Virus record (IMG/VR): IMGVR_UViG_3300008267_001287
Coordinates: 1 to 20,714 of that record
Origin: a virus
DNA length: 20,714 nt
Strand: one strand, 5' to 3'
The notes under the pieces are model-generated. The model was not told the DNA's origin and made no database searches. It saw nothing but the letters and a program-made list of their open reading frames with translations. The first letter of the stretch is position 1; the number at the start of each line of letters is the position of its first letter. Below, one piece after another: positions 5,774-20,138 of the stretch. A program made the translations under genes and the position numbers.

Positions 5774-6178
5774 TTATTTTGCCTTTCCGGCAACTAACGT
5801 TTTCCACGTATTTTTGTTGCCTGATAATAAATTACTAATATCTACACCGGGATCACTTGGATCTATATTTGACATTGGTCCAGCGGCAGCATTGCTCGCT
5901 TGTGCTTCTGTTAATGGTTTTGTACCGGCGAATGGATCAAATTTATTGCTCATGTAACCGGACTTGCCAATTTCTTCTAACATTTTTTTACGTGCTTCTG
6001 TTATTTGTACTGTTTGTTCTTTTATTACTTTTTTAACTTGTGGCTGTTCTTTAGTTTCTTTAACTGATTCTGTTTTTGATTCGGCTATTATTTTTCCTAA
6101 ACCTTCTTCAACCAGAACTTCTCTGATGCATTGTTTTATTAAAGGCTTAAGCATTGCTTTTAGTTCTTTATTATCCAT
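5774..6178 (-). CDS. Small core-like protein of unknown function, adjacent to prohead protease
   Basis: A 134-residue protein immediately downstream of the prohead protease gene. It begins with a charged helix (MDNKELKAMLKPLIKQCIRE, then VLVEEGLG), has a Lys/Glu/Gln-rich middle, and ends in a Ser/Asn/Pro-rich tail with a terminal NTWKTLVAGKAK. That ending resembles the C-terminus of the scaffold protein (DRWKLLAGIKK), which hints at a shared docking role. Several I-x-E sites in the N-terminal half could be cut by the protease. No known domain recognised. It starts one base after the TAA of the protease gene. Confidence 0.6.
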   Translation of the reverse strand: MDNKELKAMLKPLIKQCIREVLVEEGLGKIIAESKTESVKETKEQPQVKKVIKEQTVQITEARKKMLEEIGKSGYMSNKFDPFAGTKPLTEAQASNAAAGPMSNIDPSDPGVDISNLLSGNKNTWKTLVAGKAK

Positions 6179-6179
6179 T

Positions 6180-6782
6180 TTAACCGCCTAATATTTTACT
6201 TGCTAAATCTGCTAAACGATTATTTTTTGCTTCTTTTACTAAACGCTCTTTTGCTTCTTTAACCATATATGCATTTGGTGTTGATGGCTCGCTAACCATA
6301 TCAAAACAAATAAGTTGGAAGTCGTCATCGACCATTGTAATGCCGCCAACTTGGTGCGTTGAACCAAGACCACGTGAACTAATACCTAATTTAACTCCGC
6401 TCTCTACAAGCGATTTTAGTATTTGGCCAGAAGGCGTTGGGAGTACTTTTAATTTACCCATAACCGCTGGGCCATCCCACCAAGTTTTAACGATCATATG
6501 TGAAGCATTCTTTAGATTTATTACAGAACTTTCTGGGTGGTCTAATTCTCCAAGAGCGCGATTTTCAGCAATAACTCCTTGGTACTTCTCTATTTCGCGA
6601 CGAAGTATTCTTTCGCTATATTTACGACCATTCCCATTTTTAACGTCTGCTTCTTGAATTTTTCCAGTAAGGTACATTGTGCCATTATTTTTAACGTCAA
6701 GTTTTTCGGCTTCCGTTAATAAATCTTGGCAAGTACCATTGGGCCAAAGTTCAAAAAATTCGCGTAATAATTCATTAGCCAT
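6180..6782 (-). CDS. gp21: Prohead core protease, T4 gp21-like
   Basis: This serine protease matures the prohead by cutting the scaffold, core proteins and the capsid protein N-terminus. The 200-residue product matches T4 gp21 in order and motifs: NGRKYSERILRREIEKY at about 51-67, ALGELDHPESS at 77-86 with the catalytic His at 82, and GISSRGLGS at 133-141 containing the nucleophilic Ser. Length is close to T4 gp21 (about 212). The start is supported by AGGAA and an A/T-rich spacer. In T4 the gp21 consensus is (L/I)-x-E, and several window proteins carry such sites. The gene lies between a leader-bearing small protein and a core-like protein. Confident assignment. Confidence 0.95.
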   Translation of the reverse strand: MANELLREFFELWPNGTCQDLLTEAEKLDVKNNGTMYLTGKIQEADVKNGNGRKYSERILRREIEKYQGVIAENRALGELDHPESSVINLKNASHMIVKTWWDGPAVMGKLKVLPTPSGQILKSLVESGVKLGISSRGLGSTHQVGGITMVDDDFQLICFDMVSEPSTPNAYMVKEAKERLVKEAKNNRLADLASKILGG

Positions 6783-6794
6783 TTTATATTATTC

Positions 6795-6899
6795 CTAAAA
6801 ATAATTTGCGGGCGCTACCCGCACGCTACTGCTTCCTGAACAACAACGGCGTACAGGTTGGAGCATATAGCGACGTGTAAAAGTAACCTCTTTGCGCAT
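6795..6899 (-). CDS. Possible 34-residue ORF coupled to the preceding gene
   Basis: An ATG overlaps the stop of the preceding gene (TAATG, at 6901-6897) and opens a frame of 34 codons ending in TAG. The product (MRKEVTFTRRYMLQPVRRCC and a short Ser/Val-rich tail) is Arg-rich and has no recognised domain. Similar TAATG couplings are used at 7599 and 8159, which supports it. Against it, the frame runs through a GC hairpin and codes a low-complexity tail. It may be a real small gene or an accident of a regulatory gap. Confidence 0.3.
   Translation of the reverse strand: MRKEVTFTRRYMLQPVRRCCSGSSSVRVAPANYF
6807..6823 (-). terminator. GC hairpin with weak T tract before the protease gene
   Basis: The minus strand reads TGCGGG-TAGCG-CCCGCA, a 6-base-pair stem with a 5-base loop, followed by AATTATTTTT. 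This is a weak or leaky intrinsic terminator, or an RNA processing or stability element, between the leader-bearing gene and the prohead protease gene. The T-rich stretch also overlaps the upstream part of the protease ribosome region. Confidence 0.4.
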
Positions 6900-7312
6900 T
6901 ATTTTTCCCTTCCACTAAAATCTAATATTTGCTTTTCCAAACTTGCATCAAAACGAACATTTGCTGGCGTGTTTTCGAACCAACTTAGTGTTCCGTTATC
7001 AATAGTAAACTTGAATTCTCCAACAGGAACAGCCCTGCCGGAAGTTAATTCAGGGTTGTCAAAGACTAAACGATATACATTTTTACCCTGAGTTATGTAC
7101 ATTTCGCCTTCTTCAGTTGTAGTTGGTGTTCTGCCGGTTTCATAAGCGTCACGACCTTTGTAAGGTTCGTACGTACGATTATCAGGTAATTGTCCTTGTG
7201 GAGAGTTCATCACATATCCATAACCGGGATACGCGTTGCCTTCCCCCTTTTGGGACATTCCACCAATTTCTTCCATTATTAATTGCTTTAATAGCGTTTT
7301 AGAGATTTTCAT
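6899..7312 (-). CDS. Leader-bearing small protein of unknown function (candidate internal head protein)
   Basis: A 137-residue protein. Its first residues, MKISKTLLKQLIMEEIGG, match the leaders of two other small proteins in this window (19773-20138 and 15654-15905). The I-M-E within it fits the T4 prohead-protease consensus. After the leader comes a Gly/Pro/Tyr-rich stretch (about 20-60: GYGYVMNSPQGQLP, then TYEPYKGRDAYETG) and a C-terminal half with beta-like strands (NVYRLVFDNPELTSG, then VGEFKFTIDNGTLSWFE). No enzyme motif seen. It lies just upstream of the protease gene. If the leader is a capsid-targeting sequence, the mature protein would be inside the head; this is inference. Confidence 0.65.
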   Translation of the reverse strand: MKISKTLLKQLIMEEIGGMSQKGEGNAYPGYGYVMNSPQGQLPDNRTYEPYKGRDAYETGRTPTTTEEGEMYITQGKNVYRLVFDNPELTSGRAVPVGEFKFTIDNGTLSWFENTPANVRFDASLEKQILDFSGREK

Positions 7313-7329
7313 GTTATTATAAGTAGTAT

Positions 7330-7599
7330 TTATTTTTTATTAGTTTTTAAATTTATGGTTATTCCATCGTCGTCTACAAGACGGCTAATAAAATAAGAAG
7401 CCCCGCTTGATATACAGCCTGCTACGAACCAGTTAAATGGTACACTAAGCAAGAACCAATTAAATACACCAACCCAAAAGCCCATGCACATAGGACAATG
7501 AAAAAAATGGTAATGTGGTCTAATGGCTTCAAAAATTTTGCCATAGACCACAATCATTGTCATGCCATAACAGGCTAATATAAAAGTTAATAATTCCAT
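7330..7599 (-). CDS. Small membrane protein with CPMC motif (DUF1360-like)
   Basis: An 89-residue protein with two or three hydrophobic segments: about 3-20 (LLTFILACYGMTMIVVYG), about 40-52, and about 55-72. Between the first two is HCPMCMGFWVG at 34-44, with two cysteines in CxxC spacing and a Gly-Phe-Trp, which I associate with the DUF1360-type family of small phage and bacterial membrane proteins. Function is unknown. The ATG overlaps the upstream stop (TAATG), so it is translationally coupled. A membrane protein in the head operon is slightly unexpected. Confidence 0.65.
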   Translation of the reverse strand: MELLTFILACYGMTMIVVYGKIFEAIRPHYHFFHCPMCMGFWVGVFNWFLLSVPFNWFVAGCISSGASYFISRLVDDDGITINLKTNKK

Positions 7600-8159
7600 T
7601 AATAATTATAGCGGTATATGCCTCGCGTGGGAAACCCATATTTTGGCACACTTCCTTTGAATTTTTCTTGTGGAACTTCGCCAAGTTCTGTGCTTACCTC
7701 TTCGTCCGGTGTCAATAGTTCGCGTTCAAGATCATCAATAAACTTCTTACGAATGCTATATTCTTCTTTGTCTTTATTTAAAAAGTTAGTAACGTTTAAT
7801 ATTACCACTTCTATTGGTTCTTCTTCGCCCTTTTTTTCTGTTGGATATTTCGCTTCCAGCGAACCATAAATGTTGCCACCGATAATAGAATCTGCGTTTA
7901 TAACACCGGCTTGTGTTAAATATTGAAATAATTGATCTTGATCAGAATAGCAATCATTATTAAATTCACCCTTCGGGAAGGTAACTATTTTGCCTTTTTC
8001 TGGTGATATAATGATGTTTATATTGTGGTGATCTTGAATTATCAAGTCGCCATCTAAAGTTTTTCTAATTGCTAATTTGACTTTTTTTACACTTTTTTCT
8101 TTTATTTTAAGAGTTAATTCGTCAGCAGAGGGGCCTTGAACTTTTAAACTTAATGGCAT
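7599..8159 (-). CDS. Uncharacterised protein downstream of portal
   Basis: A 186-residue protein without a recognised domain. Its N-terminal half has alternating strands (LSLKVQGPSADELTLKIKEK, then DGDLIIQDHHNINIIISPEK), followed by a more helical, charged part (about 95-165) and a short tail ending in RGIYRYNY. The start overlaps the stop of the previous gene (TAATG), with GAGGTG as ribosome site. Placement between portal and protease suggests a head-assembly or virion role, but T4 gp67 and gp68, which hold that place, do not visibly match. Confidence 0.6.
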   Translation of the reverse strand: MPLSLKVQGPSADELTLKIKEKSVKKVKLAIRKTLDGDLIIQDHHNINIIISPEKGKIVTFPKGEFNNDCYSDQDQLFQYLTQAGVINADSIIGGNIYGSLEAKYPTEKKGEEEPIEVVILNVTNFLNKDKEEYSIRKKFIDDLERELLTPDEEVSTELGEVPQEKFKGSVPKYGFPTRGIYRYNY

Positions 8160-8971
8160 TAGTTTTTCACCTCATTTACGAACTGTTGGACGTACATTAT
8201 TTTTTTAATTAAAGCATCATCTATTGTTTCAAATTTAAAAGACCTGATAGATTCACGAACAGAAGAAATCGTATCATTAGTTTCTTTTATGCTATCAAGT
8301 TCGCGCGATAAGCGATTTAATTCTTCGCTAATATAAAGTTTAAATTCCACGTCATCTTCGGAATGATTAATATATTTTGATAACAGAGTTTTTTGTTCTG
8401 CTAATAAAGTTTCTTTATATGCTTCGTTAAATCTTTCTACGAATCTATTAATTACGCTATTTTCTATTGGTTTAGTTTCTATGTTTTCTACAATTACTTT
8501 TTTAGTAATGCTTGAAACTAATTCTTGTTCGAGTAATACTTTCTGACGAGTTTCTACACTTTTATTAAAAATTTGAGAAACTGTAGCGATTGTTTTATAA
8601 TTTGGAACAAAGTTATCATAAACCTGTGTACCAACGAATTTATTAATTTTTGCTATCAATTTACTTTGTTCATTGTAGATTTCTGTCTCGTTTAGTTTTT
8701 CGTGTTCTTGTTTGATGTTATTAACGAGTTTTTCCGCAATTTCTTTTGGAAATTCATTGGTTTCATACAATTGTTTATACAAAGATAATTCTTTGTATAA
8801 AACATTATTTTTGTTAAAGTGTTCTTTAATCAAAGAAGAAATAAGTCTTTGGTTTTCTTTTTGACCGTAAACAACGCTTTTTGTTAATTCTTTTACTAAA
8901 GATTCAAATAAAAACGCAGTATTGCGTTTTTTATTATGCTTAAATTTTGGTTTTTGTAGTTTCATTTGCAT
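8159..8971 (-). CDS. Uncharacterised helical protein overlapping the portal gene
   Basis: A 270-residue, Lys/Glu/Asn-rich, mainly helical protein. The N-terminus (LQKPKFKHNKKRNTAFLFES, then LVKELTK) looks conserved; I recall similar starts in proteins next to portals of uncultured T4-like phages, but no function. No signal peptide, membrane segment or enzyme motif. The first ATG (8971) lies within the 3' end of the portal gene (32-base overlap) after GGAG; an ATG two codons later (8965), preceded by AAGGA, is an equally good start. By place and size it could be a head or neck assembly factor. Confidence 0.65.
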   Translation of the reverse strand: MQMKLQKPKFKHNKKRNTAFLFESLVKELTKSVVYGQKENQRLISSLIKEHFNKNNVLYKELSLYKQLYETNEFPKEIAEKLVNNIKQEHEKLNETEIYNEQSKLIAKINKFVGTQVYDNFVPNYKTIATVSQIFNKSVETRQKVLLEQELVSSITKKVIVENIETKPIENSVINRFVERFNEAYKETLLAEQKTLLSKYINHSEDDVEFKLYISEELNRLSRELDSIKETNDTISSVRESIRSFKFETIDDALIKKIMYVQQFVNEVKN

Positions 8972-10802
8972 CCTTATTCTCCAAAGTTGTCAACAGATTT
9001 TTTATTTCCTGATTGACTTCATGCAGTTTTATTTCATTTTCGTCTTCTTTGTGCTTATCGTAATTAGTTGATTCATAAAGACTTGACAGTTTGTCATAGC
9101 CGGGAATCATGGTTCTATATGTATTTCTTCTTGCCCCCTCTGGGCTTGCCTCGGATCGCATTTGAGAAGCGGTCTTTTTGGACATAGAACTTCTCATATC
9201 AGGCTTGTTATCTCTTCTTAATGCCGCTGGTAATTCTGTTACTGGCACCGCTGGCGTTTCTTCGGGTGCAGTCTCTTCTGGTGTTTTCGTTGCAGCGGCA
9301 GCTACAGCAGCCTCTTCGCCGCCCGTTGGAGCAGTAGCGGCACCGACTGAAGCTTCAATCGAAGCCTCAAATGATTTATCATAATAAATTTCACGTTGAA
9401 TTTTCTTGAATTCCATTTCGGAAAGATTAAAGATGTGTTCGGCAATCCAACGTTTGCTGAAATAACCGTCTTTTGCCTGTGAGGCGACTTCAAATTTAGT
9501 TTTCCAGTGTTCTAATTCCTGTAATTCGCTAATCTTTGAAGGATTGTTTAGCGAAAGGCTGAAATTTAATAAGTCTTCATTCCGATAACCAAGCGTGAAA
9601 AGATGAATAATACCTATCTTTTCTAATTCTGCAACGATAACTCTCTGTAATCTTTGAACTGTTCTTGCAAAACGAATATCTTTTTGCGCAAGTGTAGTCT
9701 TATCTTCACTGGCTTTAGGATCGCGAGCGAGATAGGATTGTGGAATCTTCAAAGCGGAAAATAGTTTATCTCTTAAATATTGTACGTCTTCAATATCACC
9801 AACGAAACTACCGCCATTTAAAGTTTCTATTTTTGTATTAGATGCACCACGAGTTGGAATAAAGTAATCCTCATCAATGCTCATTGGGTTATAACGTAAA
9901 TCAATACGACCAGTATTAGGATCAACAATCATGTTGCGCTTCATTTGTGATTGAATCTTTAGCATGAATTGCTCAACGTCTTCTGGTGCTATGTTACCAA
10001 CGTCAATGTAGAATACGCGACGATCTGGTGCGCGGACGATACGGTAAGCCATCATGGCGTCCTCTAATAGGTTTAGTTGACGCCAAATACGACGGGCTGG
10101 CTCAAGCACTGAGGTACCGTATGGTGCATACTTATCTTGTCCTAATATACGAAAGTGTGCAATCTGCCAATTTTCAAACGTCAAACCACCAGTGTTCCAT
10201 TGGAATTGTACATAGCTTGGGTTTGTCTTGTCTTGACCCTCTAAACGCTCAACCTCTGGTGAAGGTAACCCTATACAACTTTTAACACCTAACTCTGGGT
10301 CTATGTCGAGATACAGAAACATGTCACCAAATTTGCACATAGTTCTGCACCAGCCGAATAGATTAAACTCTACATTTAAAATATCATAATATAAAGATTC
10401 TAAGATTCCTCTTATCTCTTGATTTGATGATTTAATATGTAACATTTTTGACATACCGCTGTGGGTAGTCATTTCGTCTGCGTATATATCTAAAGTTGAA
10501 GCAATCTCTGGAGTATATTCCATTTGATCAAAGTCGCTGTAGCGTTCTGCGCGAGTTTGATTAGCCATGATGTTGGCTTGGATTGAGTCAAATGGGTTAT
10601 AACTGCTCTTTTGAAATTGTTTACCAGTGGCACTTTGAAAGTTAAATTTATTTAAATCACGTCTACGAAAACGTAATTGAGCTTGTTGGCGGAAATTAAC
10701 AATGGGACCAGAAAAAAGTCTTGTTAAACTTTTGAATAAAGGCGACTCTGGGTTTTTAATATTTTTATTAAATTTTACTTTTCTGTTATTCTGATCGGCC
10801 AT
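8940..10802 (-). CDS. gp20: Portal vertex protein, T4 gp20-like
   Basis: The portal forms the ring at the unique head vertex through which DNA enters and leaves, and it docks the terminase. The 620-residue product has gp20 signatures: YTPEIASTLDIYADEM at about 96-111, FGWCRTMCKFGDMFLYLDID at about 149-168, RIVRAPDRRVFYIDVGN at 254-270, and a following VDPNTGRIDLRYNPMSIDED with FIPTRG, which parallels T4's tail-to-stem region. Residues about 485-530 form an Ala/Pro/Glu/Thr-rich linker and the last 90 are charged, so the C-terminus is longer than a minimal portal. The ATG follows AAGGAT and comes 4 bases after the terminase stop. Confidence 0.95.
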   Translation of the reverse strand: MADQNNRKVKFNKNIKNPESPLFKSLTRLFSGPIVNFRQQAQLRFRRRDLNKFNFQSATGKQFQKSSYNPFDSIQANIMANQTRAERYSDFDQMEYTPEIASTLDIYADEMTTHSGMSKMLHIKSSNQEIRGILESLYYDILNVEFNLFGWCRTMCKFGDMFLYLDIDPELGVKSCIGLPSPEVERLEGQDKTNPSYVQFQWNTGGLTFENWQIAHFRILGQDKYAPYGTSVLEPARRIWRQLNLLEDAMMAYRIVRAPDRRVFYIDVGNIAPEDVEQFMLKIQSQMKRNMIVDPNTGRIDLRYNPMSIDEDYFIPTRGASNTKIETLNGGSFVGDIEDVQYLRDKLFSALKIPQSYLARDPKASEDKTTLAQKDIRFARTVQRLQRVIVAELEKIGIIHLFTLGYRNEDLLNFSLSLNNPSKISELQELEHWKTKFEVASQAKDGYFSKRWIAEHIFNLSEMEFKKIQREIYYDKSFEASIEASVGAATAPTGGEEAAVAAAATKTPEETAPEETPAVPVTELPAALRRDNKPDMRSSMSKKTASQMRSEASPEGARRNTYRTMIPGYDKLSSLYESTNYDKHKEDENEIKLHEVNQEIKNLLTTLENKDANETTKTKI

Positions 10803-10806
10803 TTAA

Positions 10807-12237
10807 TTATCCTTTTATTAACCACAAAAATTCTTTATATACATTTCTGTTGTTATTTGTTTCTATTTCTCTATGATTATGCATTCCGTTGATACTGCTA
10901 TTTAAAACGCTATTGCTTTTTCCTATAGAAGCAAGTATCGCTTTATTTAATTCTACATCCTTTTGGTTGTTTATTAAAGTAGTATCTCTTACCCAGCACG
11001 CTATTGCCAGCGACATAACTAAATCGTCGTTATATCCCTTTTGTGCTTCGGGCCTTCCATGCACCCAAATAAACTTTTCTAATTCTCTAATTAGTCGTGC
11101 GGAATTGATTGTTAAAACTCTATTTCTTAATAATTCGTCTAATTTAGCAATAATTAACGGTCTTGTTTTTACGGAGGTAGTAAAACCGGGTACAACATTG
11201 CTATTTCCTATTGCGGCAATTGGCTCCACGTATTCGTGCGTTGATTTATTTGAATAATATAAATTACGATAACCTAACTCCGCAACACGTTGCGCTACGG
11301 TAAAGCCAATGTTGTTGTTTTCTATAACAAGCAAAGCGTTACCGTATTCTTTGCCGACATCAATTAATAGTTTACAGAATTGATCTGGCTCACATTTTCC
11401 TTGATATTCGGCCACTTGTTCCATTGTGCTAACATTTATTACGTGAAAAACTGAGTAATCTTCGCCATCTCCACGCGCAACGTCAGCAACTAAAAGGTAT
11501 TTTCCTTGATGATTATAAGGTTTCCAAATGTGATAGTTTCTATCAATCCAAGATTTATGCTTTGGTTCGCTTGTGTTCTGTCTTAACTGGTCAAGAACTT
11601 CTGGATCTATTACGGTTTCACCGCTTGCGTTAAAGTTACACAAATATTCCTGTGCAATTTCTCGCTTAGACATATTTTTGGTTTCGTTATCAAACCAATC
11701 CTGATCGTGGTCTGGGTGTACATTCCAAGATAGATTGGTTGGTACAAACAAGTTCTGGCCGTTCTCTGAGTCTTCATATGTTTTGTGAAACCAGTTGCCA
11801 ATACCATTTGGCGAAGAAAGCGCTATACAACGACCGCCCGTAGATATCGTAGGATATAGACCGGTCCATATGCTTTCCATGTTATCAATGTGTGCTGCTT
11901 CGTCTACGACAAGAAGTGAAACAGCCTCTGAACGACCGGCATCTTCTGAAGTAGGAATTGCTTTAATTTGTGAACCATTTGTCAACTCGAATGAATGTTT
12001 GTTGTCAATACTGACAGTAGCAATTTTAAGCCAATCAGGTACGTTTTTAATAAGAAATTTTACCTTTTTAACCATGTTACTTGCTGTGCTGTATTTAGTA
12101 GCCATTACAAGCACGTTTTTTTCACGATAAAATAACAATAGCCAAGAAATATAGACCGCACAAATGGTAGAAATACCAAGTTGGCGGGCTTTTACTATTA
12201 CATTGAAACGGTGATCGCGGAACTTAATTCGTATGTC
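10807..12237 (-). CDS. gp17: Terminase large subunit, T4 gp17-like, main part (frame broken upstream)
   Basis: This enzyme pumps DNA into the head and cuts it. The open frame codes 476 residues, starting after a TAA at 12240 and containing no ATG ahead of the ATPase core. It has Walker A as KARQLGIST (codons at about 12192-12166), Walker B as LLVVDEAAH, and the coupling motif ALSSPNG. The nuclease domain shows LLVADVARGDGEDYSV with its acidic metal ligands, LLVIENNNIG, and GYNDDLVMSLAIACW near the C-terminus. The N-terminal 45 residues lie in a different frame at 12198-12362. Joining the two would need a one-base or longer change near 12225, giving about 518 residues. A TTG at 12138 would start too late and lose Walker A. 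Either a sequencing or assembly deletion, or a real mutation. Confidence 0.9.
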   Translation of the reverse strand, partial: DIRIKFRDHRFNVIVKARQLGISTICAVYISWLLLFYREKNVLVMATKYSTASNMVKKVKFLIKNVPDWLKIATVSIDNKHSFELTNGSQIKAIPTSEDAGRSEAVSLLVVDEAAHIDNMESIWTGLYPTISTGGRCIALSSPNGIGNWFHKTYEDSENGQNLFVPTNLSWNVHPDHDQDWFDNETKNMSKREIAQEYLCNFNASGETVIDPEVLDQLRQNTSEPKHKSWIDRNYHIWKPYNHQGKYLLVADVARGDGEDYSVFHVINVSTMEQVAEYQGKCEPDQFCKLLIDVGKEYGNALLVIENNNIGFTVAQRVAELGYRNLYYSNKSTHEYVEPIAAIGNSNVVPGFTTSVKTRPLIIAKLDELLRNRVLTINSARLIRELEKFIWVHGRPEAQKGYNDDLVMSLAIACWVRDTTLINNQKDVELNKAILASIGKSNSVLNSSINGMHNHREIETNNNRNVYKEFLWLIKG

Positions 12238-12362
12238 TTAAAAGGGATGGCACCTTTTTCGGGGTGCGTAATTCTTGCGTAGTTCTTTAAAAAGTAAGCA
12301 GGATTTCTGCCACACTTAATTATTTCTTGCTTTATCTCCTCTACGGATAACTCTTCTGACAT
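12198..12362 (-). pseudogene. gp17: N-terminal fragment of the terminase large subunit, frameshifted
   Basis: An ATG at 12362 opens 54 codons: MSEELSVEEIKQEIIKCGRN, PAYFLKNYARITHPEKGAIP, FKTYE, then out-of-family residues and TAA. The Asn-Pro-Ala-Tyr-Phe-Leu and Pro-Phe-Lys-Thr-Tyr blocks are the usual N-terminal lead-in of gp17-like terminases before the ATPase. The homologous continuation (KFRDHRFNVIVKARQLG) is in the -1 frame from 12225. The Tyr-to-Walker A distance is a few residues shorter than in T4 gp17, so several codons plus a non-multiple of three seem missing. The ATG lies 11 bases after the stop of the upstream gene, with only a weak GAGTGG site. Confidence 0.75.
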
Positions 12363-12373
12363 ATTCCACTCTT

Positions 12374-12928
12374 TTATTCACCTTTTGGACGAGTAATGTT
12401 TGAAGGCTTTACTTTTTTAACCATTTTCTCTTGCTTACCAAAATATTCTTTCATCTTTTCTAAATTACCAGCAGCAATTGAAGATTTGTCAGCACCAACG
12501 CTTGAAACTTCTTTTAGATTAAGTATTTCATAAGGCATCATTGCTTTTACAAGTGCCTTAACGCGGTTAGAGCTTTCAACTAATACTTTGATTTCACCAG
12601 CCTCTTTTAGTCTTAAATTTTGACCAGTAACTTTATTGAATTCTTTTACGATAAACTTTCTTACTTCTTCGATACGGCGCTCCATTTCTTTTTCAAAACG
12701 CTTTTCGTGAAGATTGCTTAGCGGTTCAAAACTGTTATATTTTAAAATCAGTAGATTTCCGTGCATTGCGACACCAAAACCGTCCATGATTTTTTGATCT
12801 TGTATTGGTTGCTCTTCGCGCTTTAAACCAATCTCGACTGCTTTGCCAGTTTCGTCAATAGCGCCATGGTGTTTGTTGTGGATTGCTTGCGAAATTCCCT
12901 TGACAACTTCATATATGCTAAGTGCCAT
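12374..12928 (-). CDS. Conserved protein of unknown function upstream of terminase
   Basis: A 184-residue protein. The start MALSIYEVVKGISQAIHNKH and the block GLKREEQPIQDQKIMDGFGV are, from memory, found in proteins of uncultured T4-like phages, but I know no function. A central segment (GNLLILKYNSFEPL) is strand-like, followed by helices with VRKFIVKEFNKVTGQNLRLK, and a basic C-terminus. It lies exactly where a small terminase subunit might be expected, but no helix-turn-helix or gp16-like coiled-coil core is evident, so I do not name it that. Good ribosome site AGAGGAAA before the ATG; the start falls right at the stop of the upstream gene. Confidence 0.65.
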   Translation of the reverse strand: MALSIYEVVKGISQAIHNKHHGAIDETGKAVEIGLKREEQPIQDQKIMDGFGVAMHGNLLILKYNSFEPLSNLHEKRFEKEMERRIEEVRKFIVKEFNKVTGQNLRLKEAGEIKVLVESSNRVKALVKAMMPYEILNLKEVSSVGADKSSIAAGNLEKMKEYFGKQEKMVKKVKPSNITRPKGE

Positions 12929-12929
12929 T

Positions 12930-14183
12930 TTATTTCCTCTTGTTATTTATTGATCTAAATTTATCGCCGTCAACTTTAAATAGTAATTTATGTTTTGTTT
13001 CTTTGTTTTTGTTTACATGCTTATTAAATAAACCTTCATAAACTAATTGTTTATTATTTTTTAAAACTTCGTTTAATGCTTCTTGCGCTTCTTTTTCGCC
13101 TAACATCCCAGTTTTTTGTAGTCCACTTGTAATAAATTCTGTAACTTTTTGTAAAATATTACGACTAACCGATTGTTCTACTTGCCTACCAACTTCTTCT
13201 GCTGCTTGCTGTATAGAAACCGATACTTGTTTAGGCGCCAACCCTGAACCGATGTAGCGACCAGTTTTTGGATCTATTTCGTCTGCATTTATGTGTGTTT
13301 TAATTTTTTCTATAGCCGATTGTGCTAAACGATTTTCAGTTGGACCCATATTTTCTTTTGCTGCTTCATCATAAAAATACTGGAACGGTAATTCTTTTAT
13401 ATATTCATCAGAAATTTCTTCTTCAGATGCGTTTGCTTGTTGAGGTGTTTCTGGAGATGGCTGAATTGGCTCTGACTCGCTTTTTTCTTTTGATTGAGCA
13501 GGAGCCTCAGTCTGTTCAGGTGCTTTTGTCTGTGTTTCTACCCCGCCTAACTTTTGAAACATACTGGTAAGCGCACTTTGGAAATTATTTGTACCGTATA
13601 ATTTTTTTAAATTACTGAATAATTCATTGTTTATAATTTGTTTAACCATACCTTTTATAACACTTTCTTTATCTATTACAGCTTCTTCTAATGTAAAGAA
13701 AGCGTATGGCTTCAGCAATTTATTGATAAAATTGACTTGTGAGGCGCTAAATTTAATATCTGGGAATGTATCTTTTAAGTGTTTTCTAATTGGTGAAACA
13801 AACTTAGGTTCAACAAGTTTATTTACTTCTGGTTCTTTTTTAGTGGAGCTCTTTTTTTCTGTAGATTTTTGATTAGCTTTTAAATCCTTCACAGGCTTAT
13901 CAACTATTCTATCTACTAAACTTTTTAGGTCGCCTATTTTACCAGCAGTAGCATTATAGATGCCAATTAATTTTTTATATTTATTTGTTGCTTCGTCTTG
14001 TATTTCTGACCATTTTTTATTTGGATTTATTTCTTTTACGCGCTTAATGATAGCAGCAGCATAAATATCTTTTTGTTGCTGTATAGAAATGTCAGAAAAT
14101 TTAGCAGGATTTTCCGTACCGGTAGCGGAGCCATTTGTAGTTGTGCCACTTTCGGCTTCTATAATGATTAATCTTGTTGCCAT
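12930..14183 (-). CDS. Large Lys/Glu/Gln-rich protein of unknown function
   Basis: A 417-residue protein beginning MATRLIIIEAESGTTTNG. Residues 30-75 and 145-210 are helical; about 100-125 and 215-260 are low-complexity linkers rich in Lys, Ser, Glu, Pro and Gln. The C-terminal part (about 290-410) is again helical, with IQQAAEEVGRQVEQSVSRN and NEVLKNNKQLVYEGLFNKHV. No enzyme motif, cysteine cluster or membrane segment seen. The start overlaps the upstream gene by 16 bases. LIIIE|A near the N-terminus also fits an (L/I)-x-E site, but this alone is weak. Very A/T-rich. It may be structural; no recognised homologue. Confidence 0.6.
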   Translation of the reverse strand: MATRLIIIEAESGTTTNGSATGTENPAKFSDISIQQQKDIYAAAIIKRVKEINPNKKWSEIQDEATNKYKKLIGIYNATAGKIGDLKSLVDRIVDKPVKDLKANQKSTEKKSSTKKEPEVNKLVEPKFVSPIRKHLKDTFPDIKFSASQVNFINKLLKPYAFFTLEEAVIDKESVIKGMVKQIINNELFSNLKKLYGTNNFQSALTSMFQKLGGVETQTKAPEQTEAPAQSKEKSESEPIQPSPETPQQANASEEEISDEYIKELPFQYFYDEAAKENMGPTENRLAQSAIEKIKTHINADEIDPKTGRYIGSGLAPKQVSVSIQQAAEEVGRQVEQSVSRNILQKVTEFITSGLQKTGMLGEKEAQEALNEVLKNNKQLVYEGLFNKHVNKNKETKHKLLFKVDGDKFRSINNKRK

Positions 14184-14530
14184 TTGTCTTCTCTACCCTC
14201 TATCTTGGCAATATAACACGTATGGCAGACTTTATATTTTGTCAGATATACGTCATCATCCCTGTTAAAAGAATAATGCTGGCAACTAATACATTGCCTG
14301 TTAATATTATTATTAATTAGTTTCTTTGATATTAAAACCCCGCCTAAATCTACTGGTTCATTGTTTTTCTGAGACGAAAACTCTTTTTTGTACGCTTCTT
14401 TAGTTTGTTCTAAATAAGATTGTTCTTTTTCTGGATTCCAGCCACTTTTTGGATTTATTGTGGCTATTTCACCATACTTCTCTGTAATTGCTTTTTCTAA
14501 CGCTGCGATATAATTTAAATCTTTTTTCAT
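14168..14530 (-). CDS. Small zinc-ribbon protein with two CxxC pairs
   Basis: A 120-residue protein. The N-terminal two-thirds is helical (NYIAALEKAITEKYGEIATI, then WNPEKEQSYLEQTKEAYKKE). The C-terminal part holds CISC at 80-83 and CHTC at 102-105 around a Tyr/Asp-rich segment (YSFNRDDDVYLTKYKV), then IEGREDKW. Four cysteines in two CxxC pairs indicate a structural zinc site. I recall similar Cys and Glu-Gly-Arg-Glu patterns in small proteins of marine T4-like phages, without known function. Possible nucleic-acid or protein binding. Start overlaps the upstream stop (ATGA), implying coupled translation. Confidence 0.65.
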   Translation of the reverse strand: MKKDLNYIAALEKAITEKYGEIATINPKSGWNPEKEQSYLEQTKEAYKKEFSSQKNNEPVDLGGVLISKKLINNNINRQCISCQHYSFNRDDDVYLTKYKVCHTCYIAKIEGREDKWQQD

Positions 14531-14982
14531 TTAGCAACCTGAACAGCAGCATAAAATATTACTACTGAGGCAACAAATCCAGCAACAAAACCGCCAGCAA
14601 GTATAAAGTCATTCCATTTACGTTCTTCGTTTAGTAAATCTATTCTGTCTTGTTTTATTTTAAGTAAATTTTCATACATTTCTTTATTTATTTGTATTTC
14701 TATATCTTTTTTCTTAGTTACTGTTTCTAATTCTAAATTTATTTTCTTTATTTCTGTATCTTTATCTAATGTTAGTTTTGCTAATTTAGCATCTTGCTTG
14801 GCAATTACTTTAGAAATAACTGTATAATTAAAAAATAGACCATCTTCAGGCACAAGATCGCCTTGCTTTAAATCAATAAAGCCTTCAAGTTCGTTCTTAT
14901 TTTCCTGTGCATAGGCAATAGGACACCAGCCCACTAATAAAGATAGTAGGAGTGACCAAGCCACTAATTTTTTAATAATCAT
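14527..14982 (-). CDS. Exported coiled-coil protein with C-terminal membrane anchor (lysis-cassette candidate)
   Basis: A 151-residue protein. The N-terminus (MIIKKLVAWSLLLSLLVGWC, then PIAYA) is a signal peptide with a likely signal-peptidase I cut after Ala25; the Cys at 20 has no good lipobox. GDLVPEDGLFFN at 41-52 follows, a Pro/Asp-Gly motif that I associate with small phage membrane proteins. Residues 60-122 are a coiled coil, and 126-148 (FILAGGFVAGFVASVVIFYA) a membrane helix. Predicted layout: periplasmic coil, C-terminal inner-membrane anchor. This could act with the neighbouring holin-like and coiled-coil genes in host lysis, similar to a spanin, but no sequence match is claimed. 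ATGA overlaps at both ends tie it to both neighbours. Confidence 0.6.
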   Translation of the reverse strand: MIIKKLVAWSLLLSLLVGWCPIAYAQENKNELEGFIDLKQGDLVPEDGLFFNYTVISKVIAKQDAKLAKLTLDKDTEIKKINLELETVTKKKDIEIQINKEMYENLLKIKQDRIDLLNEERKWNDFILAGGFVAGFVASVVIFYAAVQVAK

Positions 14983-15389
14983 TTTTTCTTTGGCCTACCT
15001 CTCTTTTTTTCCGGTACGCCTAATTTTGCGGCTACTTCTTTCTTGAATTTTTCTTTGTTTTCTTTTGCCAGCGTTTCTAACTTTTGCGCTTGTTTTGTTT
15101 CTTTTTGTTTTATTTCCGCTTCGGCTTGCTTCTTTTCTTTTTCTATCTCTTTTTCTTTTACTTTCTTTTCCTCTTCTACCTTTGCTTTTTGTTCTACTAT
15201 TTTTTTTTCTGTTTCTACCTTAATTTCGCTTTCTGAGGCAGTTTCATTACTTTTGTTTATTTCCTCACTTATATGTTTCTTCCAAGCAACGATTGCAATA
15301 ATAACGCCTGCAATTACAAGCCAAACCCACTTCTTAACTGATAGAGCCCAATCTTTTAATTTTAATAAAGTGCCTTTAACTTTTTCCAT
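14979..15389 (-). CDS. Membrane-anchored Lys/Glu coiled coil with C-terminal AT-hook
   Basis: I chose the ATG at 15389, one base after the upstream TAA and just after AGGAAAA, over a longer start at 15449 that would overlap the holin-like gene by 59 bases; the product is 136 residues. The N-terminus is strongly basic (MEKVKGTLLKLKDWALSVKK), then a membrane helix (WVWLVIAGVIIAIVAW). A roughly 90-residue Lys/Glu/Ala coiled coil follows, with repeats such as EKEIEKEKKQAEAEIK, and the protein ends KKRGRPKKK, a classic AT-hook core (Arg-Gly-Arg-Pro flanked by Lys). An inner-membrane spanin (Rz-like) has the same outline; the AT-hook instead suggests DNA tethering to membrane. Start overlaps nothing; stop overlaps next start (ATGA). 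Confidence 0.6.
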   Translation of the reverse strand: MEKVKGTLLKLKDWALSVKKWVWLVIAGVIIAIVAWKKHISEEINKSNETASESEIKVETEKKIVEQKAKVEEEKKVKEKEIEKEKKQAEAEIKQKETKQAQKLETLAKENKEKFKKEVAAKLGVPEKKRGRPKKK

Positions 15390-15390
15390 A

Positions 15391-15645
15391 TTATTTTCCT
15401 GCCCCTTTCCATTTAATTGCGATATCAGCAAAACCTTCCACCCCGACATATCCTAAAGAAATAGCAGTCCATTCGTCGGGCGTAATCTTACCAAGACCCA
15501 GAAAGGCACTTGCTACAATCCATACCAAGAGTTTTCTGGAAATGGCTTTTGCTGTTACAATATCAAGAAATCCTCTATCGTTATTATTTTCTTTCATTTC
15601 TTTTCTCACTTCCTTTTTCATATCGTCGATTATTCCCATTTCCAT
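15391..15645 (-). CDS. Holin-like small membrane protein
   Basis: An 84-residue protein. The N-terminus is charged (MEMGIIDDMKKEVRKEMKEN), followed by AKAISRKLLVWIVASAFLGL and TPDEWTAISLGYVGVEGFAD. Two hydrophobic segments (about 39-52 and 62-75) with the Ser-Arg-Lys entry and the Tyr-Val/Gly-Val-Glu-Gly-Phe-Ala-Asp end resemble several small phage holins as I know them. Holins make the inner-membrane hole for lysis. A near-perfect AGGAGG ribosome site overlaps the stop of the upstream gene. No endolysin is in the window, so the lysis role rests on topology and on the two following coiled-coil membrane genes. Confidence 0.55.
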   Translation of the reverse strand: MEMGIIDDMKKEVRKEMKENNNDRGFLDIVTAKAISRKLLVWIVASAFLGLGKITPDEWTAISLGYVGVEGFADIAIKWKGAGK

Positions 15646-15653
15646 AATTCCTC

Positions 15654-15905
15654 CTAAAATTCTACTTCTTTATCTGGTTTTGGATATGCCTTTTTCGATT
15701 CTTCCATTTTTTGTTTAATGTTTTCAATAATTTTATTTCTTTCTTCTGGGTTCATCATCATAAATTGGCCTAAGTTGCTTTTAAATATTTTATCTTTCGA
15801 AGCCATATATAAGAAAGATCTTTCAATATCTTCGTGAAATAGATCAAATTCATTTTCTAATTCTTCTTTAATTAATTGTTTTAATTTATCTTTTGTTAGT
15901 TGCAT
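15654..15905 (-). CDS. Leader-bearing small protein of unknown function
   Basis: An 83-residue protein starting MQLTKDKLKQLIKEELENEF. This leader matches those of 6899-7312 and 19773-20138, with I-K-E at the same place. The rest is helical: FHEDIERSFLYMASKDKIFK and GQFMMMNPEERNKIIENIKQ, ending in a Lys/Pro-rich tail. No known domain. It sits between the SbcD-SbcC fusion and the holin-like gene, so place gives no clear role. The start is supported by GAGGAATT. If the leader targets the head, this would be an internal protein; otherwise it is an amphipathic helix of unknown use. Confidence 0.6.
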   Translation of the reverse strand: MQLTKDKLKQLIKEELENEFDLFHEDIERSFLYMASKDKIFKSNLGQFMMMNPEERNKIIENIKQKMEESKKAYPKPDKEVEF

Positions 15906-15915
15906 TTTAATTCCT

Positions 15916-18900
15916 CTATTGATTTACAAAAGCAAAACCGTCTTGTCTATCAATATTAATTTGCATATCAACTGTGTCTTTGAGTGCATCAAGATGCGAA
16001 ACAAGAAGCACAGTCTTAAAGTACCCCTTAATTAGTTCCAGAATACGAATAAAACCAGCCAGATTGTCGTTATCAAGTGCTGTACCGGGTTCGTCAAGGA
16101 TAAAAATATCGCTTTTAGGTAGGCTGGTAACATTTAAGAATGCCAATCTAATAGCAACAGAAGCAAGAGACTTTTCTGCTCCGCTGCCCATCTCTAAAGG
16201 TCTGGCTTCGTATTTTGGATGCTTTATCATAATATCTAATTTATCGTCGTCGTTTAATAAAAACACATTAAAATCTACAATGTTTGCTAATATTTTATTA
16301 ATTTCTGCATTGATTACGGGTAATTTATTTTTGATTACTTGATAACTTATACCGTTGGGATGCATTGACTTCAAGTATAGATCATAAGCCCCAAACTCTT
16401 TACGTCTTTCTGCTAACTCTTGCATTTCTTCTTCTTGAGTTTCTAATTTAGAAATAAGGTATCCGTTTTCTTTGTATAAAGTAGTAATACCTTGCTGGAT
16501 TTTATTGGCTTCCATTTCTAATTGGCTAATTTTTGCTTTACAAGCCTTTTCACTATCTTGTAATAGGTTTAGATTACTAATAATATCCTTTTGCAGATCT
16601 AATTGTTGGAGTTTTGTATTACAGTCAAGAATGTTTGCTTCTATTGTTGATAATTTATTTATTTGTTTTTCTTTATCTAAGATTAGATCTTTTTGCTCTA
16701 ATTCAAGTTTTGTCTTGAGAGCAAGCGCAGAGTTATACTTTTGAATTTGTTTATTGATACCTTCGCTGTTTAGTGTCTGCAATTGTGTCTTCTTGCTGCC
16801 AATATTCTCGTTAATGGATTGTAAGTTGGTTTCAACTTGTGGTTTTTCTTCCTGCGCAGAGTGCGCATCCTTGATAAATTTACAAGACTTGAATTGCGTG
16901 CCGCAAGGAACTTCGCCAAGAAGAGTTACACGCTTTCGCAAATCCTTATCGGTTTGCGATAACATCTTGTATTCTGTTTCAAGTTCTTGAAGTTCTTTCG
17001 TAATAGCGTCAATCGCTGCTTTTTCTTTCAGTAACGACTCAATGTCTATTGATAAATCGCTTTCAAATGTTGCTTTTGCAGAGTTGACTTCTGTTAGTCT
17101 ATTTTCAATAACAGATAATTTTTCTTTGACGACTTTCAAAGTAATTTCATGCACTCTCTTTGCTTCGATTAAACCAACAGGTGATCCAACCTCAACCTTT
17201 ATGCTTTTGATAGATGTTACAAGATCTAAAAGTTCTTCGCGCTTCTTTGATAAGGCGAGTTGCACAACTTCGAGTAAATCTTTCTGCTCGTTTGTATCGC
17301 TTTCATTTTTCTTTATTTCTTGCTTTGTTTTTTCTATCTCTGCTGAGTAATCGGTGCCTTCTAACTTCTTAAGTACGGCCTTGATGTCTGCGGCTTCGCT
17401 CTTAGCAAGTTTAAACTTTGCTTCGAACATGTCCAAGTCCAAGAACTTAGCAAGGATTGCTTTGCGTTGCGTGGACCCTTCGTTAATAAAAGCAAGAGAG
17501 TTTAGTTGGCTGGACATTGATGTAAGCAAGAAATCATCAATTGTTCCAACAAATCTACGAATGTTTTTATCTGTATCGCTGCGATCTAAACCGTTTAGCG
17601 CCTCTTCGTCATCTGCGGAGAAAGTAACATCTGTCTTGGCTTCTACGCTTTCCACGCCTTTGCTTTTCTTTAGGTACTTCTCGCTGGTACGGTCGATTAC
17701 GTATTCGTTACCGTCAATCTCAAACACTACTTTTCCATGACCTTTTTCGCGGTTTTGATTAATAATGTTTAAGTTTTTACGGTTATTCTTGGAAGTAGTA
17801 TTAAATACTGTATAAAGCAGCGAGTCGATTACGGAAGTTTTACCAATGTAGTTCTTGCCGAAGATACCAACAACGCCGTTTAATTTATCAAAATTTAACT
17901 TGTTACCTTCGCCATAATTAAAAAGATTATCCCACTCAAGAGACTTAATCTTCCAATTAATATTGCGCGCAATCTCTTCACCTTGCTCAACTTGTGAAGA
18001 AAAGCGCTTATTCATGTCGTAGATTTTTTCTAACGTTTCTCTGTCTGGATTATAATCTTTTAGATAAGTTGAGATAAGATCTTCTTGGACAGACAAGTCG
18101 CGAAGATTAAGCGCCTTTGATAGACTGGATACTTCTTGTAGGTTTTCTTTACTGTTGTCACTCTTGTTTACGTAAGTAACGCTTTCCGGCTTGAAGCGTG
18201 TTTTTGCTGCATCAATAGCATTTTTAACTTTATCAACCGCAAGATTGCTACGCGAAATAAGACGGATACGCGAGCCTTTTGGTAGCACTACGCCGTCGCC
18301 AATCTCGCCCTCTGTCCCAAGTTCAATGGTAACAAAAGGCTTAGGATTACCAATGCGGATGTGGCGCACGTCAAAAGTATCCTTATCTTTTATGTCCCAG
18401 ATAAGAAAACCCTTGTCGTTTGTCTCACCGAAGTTTTGCTGGATTGTTGATCCTGCGTAACGCATGCGACCATCGGGATCTACAATTTGGTTGCTAAGAT
18501 GTATGTCACCAAGTAGTGCGTAATCATGACCTTCGAAAATGTCGATACAGTCATCGCCGTGTTCAATAATGTAGCCCGTATCGGTAACTACACCATTGAT
18601 GGAACCGTGGTATAGAGCAACGATTGGTCTGTTGTCATCTTTTGGTGGTTCCTTAAAAGAAACCCAATTTTCTCTATCAAAAATAGAGAGAACATTAAAA
18701 ATAATGTCTTTAAGATAAAGAGCACCCGAGTTTTTTAAATAAACAATTCGCTCATCTTCTATTGCACCAACAATTGGGCTAATAGAATCTAATCTTTTAT
18801 TGTTTCTTAAGTTTGTGTCATGGTTGCCAGCAATAATGTAAACTGGAGAAATTTCTGCTAATGATTTTAAAAATTCTGTTGCGAGCGTAACGCTTTCTGG

Positions 18901-19062
18901 GGTTAATTGCAACTTTGTATGAAATAAATCCCCAGTGTGTACAATGTAGTCTGGATTTTCTTTTTTGATAGTTTCGTAGATTTTACTGAAGACTTCTCTA
19001 TAATCATCGTGTCTTTTTAATGTCGGAATGTGCGTATCACTCAGATGTATCAATTTTGGCAT
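15916..19062 (-). CDS. sbcD-sbcC: Fused SbcD-SbcC (Mre11-Rad50) recombination nuclease, T4 gp47-gp46 in one chain
   Basis: A 1048-residue protein joining two enzymes that act as a complex in end processing and recombination-dependent replication. Residues 1-340 are the Mre11/SbcD phosphoesterase: SDTHIP at 8-13, TGDLFHTK at 43-50, AGNHD at 78-82, YHGSING at 151-157 and LLGDIH at 183-188, all metal-ligand motifs. From about 370 the Rad50/SbcC part starts (KSLEWDNLFNYGEGNKLNFD), with Walker A GIFGKNYIGKTS at 399-410, a long coiled coil (about 560-880) and a hook CGTQFKSC at 720-727, which is C-x6-C rather than the common CxxC. The ATPase ends with the signature MGSGAEKSLASVA at 958-970, Walker B DIFILDEP at 985-992 and VSHLD at 1021-1025. 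In T4 the two are separate genes. No frameshift at the join. The start lies within the homing endonuclease gene, after GGAGAG. Confidence 0.93.
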   Translation of the reverse strand: MPKLIHLSDTHIPTLKRHDDYREVFSKIYETIKKENPDYIVHTGDLFHTKLQLTPESVTLATEFLKSLAEISPVYIIAGNHDTNLRNNKRLDSISPIVGAIEDERIVYLKNSGALYLKDIIFNVLSIFDRENWVSFKEPPKDDNRPIVALYHGSINGVVTDTGYIIEHGDDCIDIFEGHDYALLGDIHLSNQIVDPDGRMRYAGSTIQQNFGETNDKGFLIWDIKDKDTFDVRHIRIGNPKPFVTIELGTEGEIGDGVVLPKGSRIRLISRSNLAVDKVKNAIDAAKTRFKPESVTYVNKSDNSKENLQEVSSLSKALNLRDLSVQEDLISTYLKDYNPDRETLEKIYDMNKRFSSQVEQGEEIARNINWKIKSLEWDNLFNYGEGNKLNFDKLNGVVGIFGKNYIGKTSVIDSLLYTVFNTTSKNNRKNLNIINQNREKGHGKVVFEIDGNEYVIDRTSEKYLKKSKGVESVEAKTDVTFSADDEEALNGLDRSDTDKNIRRFVGTIDDFLLTSMSSQLNSLAFINEGSTQRKAILAKFLDLDMFEAKFKLAKSEAADIKAVLKKLEGTDYSAEIEKTKQEIKKNESDTNEQKDLLEVVQLALSKKREELLDLVTSIKSIKVEVGSPVGLIEAKRVHEITLKVVKEKLSVIENRLTEVNSAKATFESDLSIDIESLLKEKAAIDAITKELQELETEYKMLSQTDKDLRKRVTLLGEVPCGTQFKSCKFIKDAHSAQEEKPQVETNLQSINENIGSKKTQLQTLNSEGINKQIQKYNSALALKTKLELEQKDLILDKEKQINKLSTIEANILDCNTKLQQLDLQKDIISNLNLLQDSEKACKAKISQLEMEANKIQQGITTLYKENGYLISKLETQEEEMQELAERRKEFGAYDLYLKSMHPNGISYQVIKNKLPVINAEINKILANIVDFNVFLLNDDDKLDIMIKHPKYEARPLEMGSGAEKSLASVAIRLAFLNVTSLPKSDIFILDEPGTALDNDNLAGFIRILELIKGYFKTVLLVSHLDALKDTVDMQINIDRQDGFAFVNQ

Positions 19063-19639
19063 TCTCTCTCCAAGTCTCGTTTTTTATTACATGTGACACA
19101 GTGCTTAAACCAACATTATACTCTTCTGCAAGCATAAGTAAAGTATATTTATTTTTTTGATATTTTTCTCTTATTTCTCTAACAAGTTGCCAATTTAATT
19201 TGGCTCTTCCGTTTCTTTCACCATTAAAATCTGCATGGTTATCGCTTATTTTTTTTCTTGATTCTGGCGAATGTGTTTTATTAAACATTCCATGTTTCTC
19301 TTTCTTAAGCGCAACCCCGGTCATTGGATCTTTGTGCGCTGTTTTGCAAATATTGTATCCGTATTGCTTTTCATACGATTTATAAAAATTTAAATAATAG
19401 TTTTCTCTTTCTATTATTATTTCTTTATTTTCTATTGTCTCTAATACTTCAAAAGAAAAATTTTTTTCTCCGTATTTATTCCAAGAATTTTGTAATCTCG
19501 GAGAATGATGTTTATTATTTCTTAATAAAACTTTATGTATAGACCATCTTTTAATAAAGTTTCTTGTCGTACTACCAACATAAATTTTATTGTTGATTAT
19601 ATTTTTTATTACATAAATGCCAAAAGTTTTATTTAACAT
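19037..19639 (-). CDS. GIY-YIG homing endonuclease, free-standing (Seg-like)
   Basis: A 200-residue endonuclease of the kind that spreads itself between phage genomes by cutting a recipient lacking it. The catalytic domain covers about 5-98: FGIYVIKNIINNKIYVGST with Gly-Ile-Tyr at 7-9 and Tyr-Val-Gly at 20-22, a conserved Arg near 31, and a Glu in EIIIERENYYL (77 or 79). A NUMOD3-like DNA-binding motif follows, KHGMFNKTHSPESRKKISD at about 115-133, then a helix-turn-helix region (145-190: KLNWQLVREIREKY, AEEYNVGLSTVSHVIKNETW). It overlaps the fusion gene by 26 bases. A candidate promoter and a ribosome site GAGGG precede it. T4 carries similar free-standing seg genes. Intact by all visible motifs. 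Confidence 0.92.
   Translation of the reverse strand: MLNKTFGIYVIKNIINNKIYVGSTTRNFIKRWSIHKVLLRNNKHHSPRLQNSWNKYGEKNFSFEVLETIENKEIIIERENYYLNFYKSYEKQYGYNICKTAHKDPMTGVALKKEKHGMFNKTHSPESRKKISDNHADFNGERNGRAKLNWQLVREIREKYQKNKYTLLMLAEEYNVGLSTVSHVIKNETWRENAKIDTSE
19066..19071 (-). promoter_or_regulatory. Ribosome site of the fusion gene inside the homing endonuclease gene
   Basis: The minus strand reads GGAGAG, a short spacer, then the ATG at 19062. The site lies inside the coding sequence of the homing endonuclease, so that gene's last 14 codons both encode its own tail and carry the start signals of the recombination nuclease. Confidence 0.55.
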
Positions 19640-19672
19640 GTAAATCCCTCTAAGTAAATAGATTGATTTACA

Positions 19673-19701
19673 ATTTTACCATCGTGACTTGATTTTTTTA
19701 A
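19673..19701 (-). promoter_or_regulatory. Candidate sigma70-type promoter for the homing endonuclease-nuclease unit
   Basis: On the minus strand TTAAAA (19701-19696), 17 bases, then TAAAAT (19678-19673) preceded by TGG, an extended -10 pattern. It lies just after the terminator and about 35 bases before the start at 19639, so transcription would begin near 19665 and run through the endonuclease and the SbcD-SbcC fusion. A/T-rich sequence makes chance matches likely; placement right after a terminator is the main support. Confidence 0.4.
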
Positions 19702-19711
19702 CAAAATAAAA

Positions 19712-19734
19712 TGGCCCTGCTACTAACAGGGCCA
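19712..19734 (-). terminator. Strong intrinsic terminator
   Basis: The minus strand reads TGGCCCTG, loop TTAGTAG, CAGGGCCA, an 8-base-pair GC-rich stem, followed by TTTTATTTTGTT. This is a textbook Rho-independent terminator for transcripts ending after the 19773-20138 gene. It divides the primase-side unit from the endonuclease-nuclease unit. Confidence 0.85.
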
Positions 19735-19772
19735 AGTATACTACAGCATATATAGAGTTTCAACTAAACTTT

Positions 19773-20138
19773 TTATGTTTTTGGAGAGGACAACGTAAGT
19801 TTTATTTTTTCTAATTCGTCAATAACATTTTTTGCATTCACTTGCACCTGTTGCATATCCCGTATAGCGGCTCTGATATCGTCCTCGGACATTTGTCCTG
19901 TAATTTCAATAGGCTTAGAGGACTCAATCCTATCAACAAGTATAGATAATTCTTTATTAAAGAATGCTGCTATGTCTTCTAAACTTTTATTAGACATTTC
20001 CGATGTCATGGCTGGCTGTATTTCTGATTCACGACCAGAAGTTACGTCGCTGGTAGCAGTGCCAGTGTGTTCGCCGCCATGCATTTCCTCAAGTGATTCT
20101 ACAATAAGCGCTTTTAGTGTTTTTTTATCAAGTTTCAT
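19773..20138 (-). CDS. Leader-bearing small protein of unknown function, downstream of primase
   Basis: A 121-residue protein starting MKLDKKTLKALIVESLEEMH, the third member of the leader set; I-V-E lies at the place of the I-M-E and I-K-E of the others. A Gly/Thr/Ser-rich linker follows (about 21-45: GEHTGTATSDVTSGRESEIQ), then two helices (SLEDIAAFFNKELSILVDRI and SEDDIRAAIRDMQQVQVNAK). No enzyme motif, membrane segment or cysteine. The ATG is 1 base after the primase stop, so the two are co-translated. The transcript ends at the hairpin just downstream. Function unknown; candidate internal head protein by leader only. Confidence 0.6.
   Translation of the reverse strand: MKLDKKTLKALIVESLEEMHGGEHTGTATSDVTSGRESEIQPAMTSEMSNKSLEDIAAFFNKELSILVDRIESSKPIEITGQMSEDDIRAAIRDMQQVQVNAKNVIDELEKIKLTLSSPKT

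Follow-up and report, generated by a model that had tools for sequence, protein, structure and literature searches.

The leader-bearing genes of the window

The stretch analysed here (the window) comprises positions 1 to 20,714 of IMG/VR virus record IMGVR_UViG_3300008267_001287, a 20.7-kb viral fragment that carries on its minus strand a T4-type head gene cluster encoding terminase, portal, a gp21-type prohead protease, a protein at the gp22 position and the capsid protein. Three small proteins encoded in it begin with a common N-terminal leader (Table 1), and this leader, its distribution among related viruses and its possible role in loading the prohead are the subject of this report. The three N-termini had been quoted in a preliminary description of the window, exactly and without their strand, which is the minus strand for all three genes; the consensus drawn from them there has three matches in the window and none among 32,000 codon-shuffled genes. 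As had also been stated, the proteins differ behind the leader, their tails showing no mutual BLAST match at E<10, and a gp21 homologue is encoded in the same window. On a leader score matrix built from relatives, the window leaders reach 28.1, 29.0 and 9.1, and all three copies are N-terminal. For the protein directly upstream of gp21 (6899-7312), structure prediction gives a leader helix at residues 5-15, a disordered linker to about residue 70 and a beta-rich domain at residues 71-133 (mean predicted local distance difference test score 63.5, about 80 in the domain), with no relative in the PDB by fold (Foldseek) or by sequence. By tblastn against INPHARED, no relative was found of the three window leader proteins or of the protein that follows gp21.

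Table 1. Leaders, leader proteins and head genes of the window; the arrow marks a predicted cleavage position.
Feature	Position	Strand	Remarks
Leader of gene 1, MKISKTLLKQLIMEE	7268..7312	-	K2, I12 and E14 invariant across 12 orthologues
137-residue leader protein	6899..7312	-	At -1 of gp21, immediately upstream, where T4 has gene 68
Leader of gene 2, MQLTKDKLKQLIKEE	15861..15905	-	
83-residue leader protein	15654..15905	-	L003 orthologue (277-528) retains the leader
Leader of gene 3, MKLDKKTLKALIVES, second site L-E-E18 directly after	20094..20138	-	Weakest of the three (score 9.1)
121-residue leader protein	19773..20138	-	Orthologue L334:12698-13069 retains a leader (MKKLNKIALKELVVES)
gp21-type prohead protease	6180..6782	-	phrog_207, E=8.6e-56
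Conserved helical protein, downstream of gp21	5774..6178	-	Present in about 93 loci
Predicted propeptide of major capsid protein; its end, LLRE60↓A, matches the cut position of T4 gp23	1598..1777	-	phrog_138; alignment with 31 relatives and T4 gp23
361-residue protein at gp22 (scaffold) position	1807..2892	-	Assigned by position only; no informative family match; 42 relatives
Portal protein (gp20), start of head gene cluster	8940..10802	-	phrog_213, E=4.8e-71

Leader anatomy and candidate cleavage sites

The leader follows the consensus M-K-I-T-K-x-Q-L-[KR]-x-I-I-[KR]-E-E-[LI] (with more positions left open, M-K-[IL]-T-K-x-x-L-[KR]-x-I-I-x-E-E) and forms a helix of roughly 15-22 residues, with information dropping to background beyond residue 22. 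Synonymous codons vary freely at the conserved residues, six Leu codons being used at position 8, for example, and selection therefore acts on the peptide. An explanation in which it is the DNA of the first 45 bases that is conserved, for recombination and gene shuffling or for translation, with a peptide that does nothing, would suit the shuffling of leader genes in arrays with unrelated bodies, as well as the hyperplasticity for which T4-type internal-protein loci are known. However, the use of every synonymous codon at conserved residues already disfavours it, and copies of the motif also lie within proteins and at their C-termini, so that such a DNA element is very improbable.

It had been proposed that gp21 removes each leader by a cut after the common I-x-E. 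The site itself is present in 98% of leaders; a cut there is uncertain, as Glu follows it, at P1', in 86%. A second [LIVM]-x-E, starting at residues 16-27, is found in 176 of 241 non-redundant leaders (73%) versus 82±7 after shuffling (34%). It mostly ends at residues 18-22 and sometimes at 27, and it is Glu-specific, the Asp version occurring only 39 times. Examples from the 289-kb contig G008 are ...IIREEKQKLLKE↓S and ...IIREEYSRLKRQGLIRE↓T. A, S, G, T or Q stands at P1' of the first site in 15 of the 58 leaders without a second site versus 9 of the 183 with one (p=2.5e-5, a post hoc comparison). Where present, the second site appears to fit the T4 rule better than the first: in the T4 record the gp21 site LLIE↓T and the gp23 site FLTE↓A both obey [LI]-x-E, and in relatives of the window the capsid protein conserves LL[RK]E↓[ASQ] at the position where T4 gp23 is cut, in contrast to the Glu at P1' of the leader. 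The gp21 homologue of the window carries LLTE24↓A near its own N-terminus, a conserved candidate self-cleavage site when the N-termini of relatives are compared. The LLTE conserved near the start of gp21 in these phages has E or D after it in most cases, which weakens the argument that Glu at P1' excludes a cut at the common I-x-E.

These sites also bear on the possibility that the helix is an uncleaved scaffold-binding tag, which loads proteins into the prohead core and holds no gp21 site, [LI]-x-E being only the polar/hydrophobic pattern of the helix. C-terminal copies that retain L-x-E with almost nothing after it (e.g., ...LIKEELLRVLNEKK-stop) would agree with this, as would the Glu at P1' of the first site and the abundance of [LIVM]-x-E in E-rich control proteins. 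However, Asp does not replace Glu, L-x-E is kept though its distance varies (18, 21, 22 or 27), the two sites compensate each other at P1', and the T4 gp21 substrates and the capsid protein here follow [LI]-x-E, all of which makes an uncleaved tag improbable.

Abundance and spread of the leader

According to the preliminary description, similar leaders occur on numerous hypothetical proteins from environmental phages, and both a pattern scan of IMG/VR and the score matrix bear this out. With a strict 45-base DNA pattern, at least 120 matches were obtained in IMG/VR; copies of the exact pattern numbered up to 14 per contig among the contigs searched and were invariably on the gp21 strand, an agreement that says little because these genomes are almost wholly one-stranded. 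The reversed pattern had no match, and the exact pattern had none in 27 random contigs searched. As the pattern-selected set is biased, tests of position and rate were run on a gp21-selected set of 80 IMG/VR loci, selected solely by the presence of a relative of the gp21 in the window; gene calls are those of a home-made caller, the metagenomic contigs are fragmentary, and several tests were picked after inspection of the data. Above the leader score lie 89 of 1427 gene N-termini in the gp21-selected set, and in random viral contigs none of 1606 genes and none of 4873 internal Met positions scores >5 on the matrix. The gp21-bearing loci hold about 95 leader open reading frames (ORFs) in 1.06 Mb. 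Beyond the window, the leader is very common. By the score matrix, G008 has about 26 leader genes, of which 15 are consecutive at 52332-58201 (L347:12332-18201). The genes of this array are small, each with its own leader and most with [LI]-x-E and an unrelated body; one protein has an extra internal copy, and one has a weak match to ribosome modulation factor (RMF). In GTDB (257 Gb), the strict pattern occurs in only eight stretches, every one of them in metagenome-assembled bins; of five bins tested for gp21, two contain it as well. The motif was not found in print in the literature searched. The bare 22-residue leader, too short a query to be informative, had no tblastn match in INPHARED even at E=10.

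The 356 leader proteins fall into 242 tail families, 208 of which are singletons. The domains recognised among the cargo are pentapeptide repeat and GNAT, with weakly RMF-like proteins and one FliG C-terminal match, and these would suit host-directed proteins that are injected. Candidates for leaderless homologues of the cargo were nearly all start-codon errors of the gene caller. Descent of all leader proteins from one ancient family, with bodies diverged beyond recognition and a leader that is plain homology and targets nothing, would be consistent with the multi-member tail families, the largest BLAST-linked group having 53 members. It is hardly credible, however, given bodies that differ in fold (GNAT, RMF-like, pentapeptide repeat helix), the many singletons and the varied places of the motif in the chain.

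Gene position and association with the gp21 protease

Strict leader genes of the gp21-selected set lie at position -1 of gp21 in 21 of 79 loci and at +1 in 15 of 73, and at each of positions +2 to +6 in 0-2 of about 50-65 loci; comparison of leader genes within two genes of gp21 with those farther away gives p=2e-7. In the T4 record, the prohead-core genes 67, 68 and 22 flank gene 21, and it is gene position that argues for the leader directing proteins into the prohead core. The conserved protein downstream of gp21 has an N-terminal helix, LKPLIKECIxEVLxEE, similar to that of the leader. Aligned with the leader by hhalign, it reached probabilities of 29-63%, with one of 20 shuffled controls at 52%, a resemblance that is suggestive only.

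Whether leader-bearing proteins occur equally in phages that lack a gp21-type protease had been raised as a check on the proposed link. The gp21 gene (phrog_207) is far commoner in leader contigs >37 kb (21 of 27) than in random contigs (4 of 28; Fisher p=2e-6), with one contig (G007) as a possible exception to the link. Of the six leader contigs without gp21 (G001, G006, G007, G013, G019 and G022), G001 has a leader array in common with the gp21-bearing G025. Four are likely fragments, as terminase and portal are also missing from G006, G013 and G022, and a marginal terminase match is all that G019 has; a search with phrog_77 was of no help in typing the gp21-negative contigs. G007 is a 125-kb contig with its leader gene at 58786-59313 (L394:4787-5314); its head genes have either been rearranged or lie past the end of the contig. 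Among isolates, Microcystis phage Mel-JY01 is the closest, and it bears the motif once, at a C-terminus (MKITREQLKEKIRIIVKRVLNEAMK). This copy lies in WWT39336.1 (L384:12405-13691), a protein of 428 residues whose N-terminus, MQFKQYILGES, resembles by eye the T4 capsid-targeting sequence (CTS).

Comparison with known systems

The internal proteins of T4 have only the short CTS in common (PMC3012670). It carries foreign proteins into the core, and CTS fusions that enter there have the signal removed by gp21 (PMC10229621, PMC9958956). In the T4 record, IPIII begins MKTYQEFIAE↓A, cut after residue 10, and IPI begins MKTFKEF...TITE19↓A, a cut that agrees with the 76-residue mature form (PMC3012670). 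The leader is like the CTS in being a short N-terminal sequence common to small unrelated cargo in phages with a gp21-type protease, with an M-K start and an [LI]-x-E end, in the leader a candidate site for the prohead protease; the distance of the site varies, as the cut distance does in T4. It is unlike the CTS in its greater length (15-22 residues) and its T-K-x-x-L-K-x-I-I-K-E-E core; T4 IPI and IPIII score -9.7 on the leader matrix and have only M-K and the hydrophobic-x-E end in common with it. Further, the leader occurs in tens of copies per genome and in tandem arrays, versus three copies in T4, and it can be internal or C-terminal. Whereas the CTS is stated to be absent from other core proteins of T4 (PMC9958956), genes at -1 and +1 of gp21 bear the leader here. 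It is kept apart from the T4 CTS family because it is not recognisably related in sequence and not strictly N-terminal; it may be a variant of the capsid-targeting principle, one that, on the evidence, would work like the CTS.

In giant phages of the SPN3US/phiKZ type, head and ejection proteins also bear N-terminal propeptides, some of 20-24 residues, that are removed by the prohead protease (PMC10052503). However, no common leader on unrelated cargo is known there from that account, and protease specificity and propeptide lengths differ. The genes of T4 gp67, gp68 and gp22, core proteins packed and processed by gp21, hold the same positions around gp21 as leader genes do, although none of the three proteins resembles the leader significantly in sequence (scores -1.6, 2.7 and -3.3). 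Encapsulin cargo-loading peptides are likewise short, appended to unrelated cargo and used for packing into an HK97-fold shell; they are mostly C-terminal, uncut and outside viral assembly, and their likeness to the leader is a functional analogy only.

Other genes of the window

The gene for the terminase large subunit is split at 12138-12362 (minus strand), an N-terminal ORF of 54 residues and the main ORF lying in different frames. In L003 and L004 it is unbroken at this point, and the split is either an assembly error or a real lesion. A single ORF of 1048 residues (15916-19062, minus strand) fuses an SbcD-like phosphoesterase with an SbcC-like ATPase, whereas T4 gp47 and gp46 are separate proteins. 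Between it and the leader gene at 19773, a GIY-YIG homing endonuclease (19037-19639, minus strand) overlaps the start of the fusion. Two adjacent paralogous proteins of 133 and 134 residues (4659-5060 and 5083-5487, minus strand), between gp21 and the gp22-position gene, have no Pfam match and are perhaps capsid decoration proteins. A basic protein of 75-90 residues follows gp21 (5500-5772, minus strand, and L360:13062-13289), the window copy having no Pfam match; Mel-JY01 has a gene annotated as ribosomal protein S21 in this place, and G008 has a similar one.

A proposed model for loading of the prohead

With the T4 precedent and the common [LI]-x-E rule, loading by a helix followed by trimming is the best explanation of the leader, and we hold with moderate confidence that it is a prohead-loading signal whose cargo is then freed by the gp21-type protease and kept in the head, some of it probably being ejected. 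We infer that the amphipathic leader helix would attach small proteins of unrelated kinds to the scaffolding core, or to the inner shell, of a T4-type prohead during assembly. The gp21-type protease would then most likely free the cargo by a cut behind an [LI]-x-E, using the second site (residues 18-22, sometimes 27) in leaders that have one and the leader's I-x-E in the others. The cargo would stay in the virion head, and some of it would probably be ejected with the DNA as host-directed effectors. The preliminary description had likewise proposed a targeting leader on unrelated small proteins; the association with gp21 phages and the crowding in the prohead-core gene cluster speak for this, whereas strictly N-terminal placement and a gp21 that predicts the leader did not hold.

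Several observations count against this model. Besides the Glu that mostly follows the first I-x-E, the second site is present in only one of the three window proteins; and [LIVM]-x-E is found in 71% of E-rich control proteins versus 82% of E-rich leaders, so that the second-site signal is partly one of composition. In relatives the motif is also found internally or C-terminally, in most cases with its L-x-E equally spaced, unlike a simple cut-off signal, and for this reason a prohead-loading helix is a better fit than a cleaved N-terminal signal; control contigs contained no internal or C-terminal copy above a stringent score. The T4-type late promoter TATAAATA is not enriched upstream of leader genes (0.3% versus 0.4%), and late promoters therefore provide no evidence on timing. 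G007 has one leader gene and a terminase and portal of T4 type, but no recognised gp21 or capsid gene. The strict leader pattern is absent from 12 cultured gp21 phages, as it is from four random gp21-positive contigs; gp21 thus does not predict the leader, which is instead a trait of a branch of gp21 phages. Finally, most leader genes, such as those of the big arrays, are far from gp21. This distance would suit a helix that docks to another phage machine (replisome, RNA polymerase, ribosome or membrane), the proteins acting in the infected cell and never entering a capsid. Internal and C-terminal copies would likewise suit a general docking motif, and the C-terminal copy of Mel-JY01 adjoins recombinase, polymerase and helicase genes. 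However, docking to another machine is rather unlikely in view of the crowding of leader genes at -1 and +1 of gp21, the [LI]-x-E that follows the helix and is specific for Glu, the leader-like helix of the conserved post-gp21 protein and the tie of leader contigs to gp21.

A broader form of the prohead-loading model, which we put forward tentatively and at less than even confidence, is that throughout a large uncultured T4-like branch one modular helix, whether N-terminal, internal or C-terminal, packs and injects dozens of small effectors per genome, with the prohead protease trimming at [LI]-x-E. If so, several hundred "hypothetical" phage proteins would be injected cargo. With the simple N-terminal signature, unannotated proteins from environmental phages would be classed by the hundreds as head-packed and probably injected, and such proteins would be candidates for counter-defence and host takeover, like T4 IPI. 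The leader would also provide a second, longer tag for loading foreign proteins into phage heads, and the choice of cargo by T4-type proheads would become testable.

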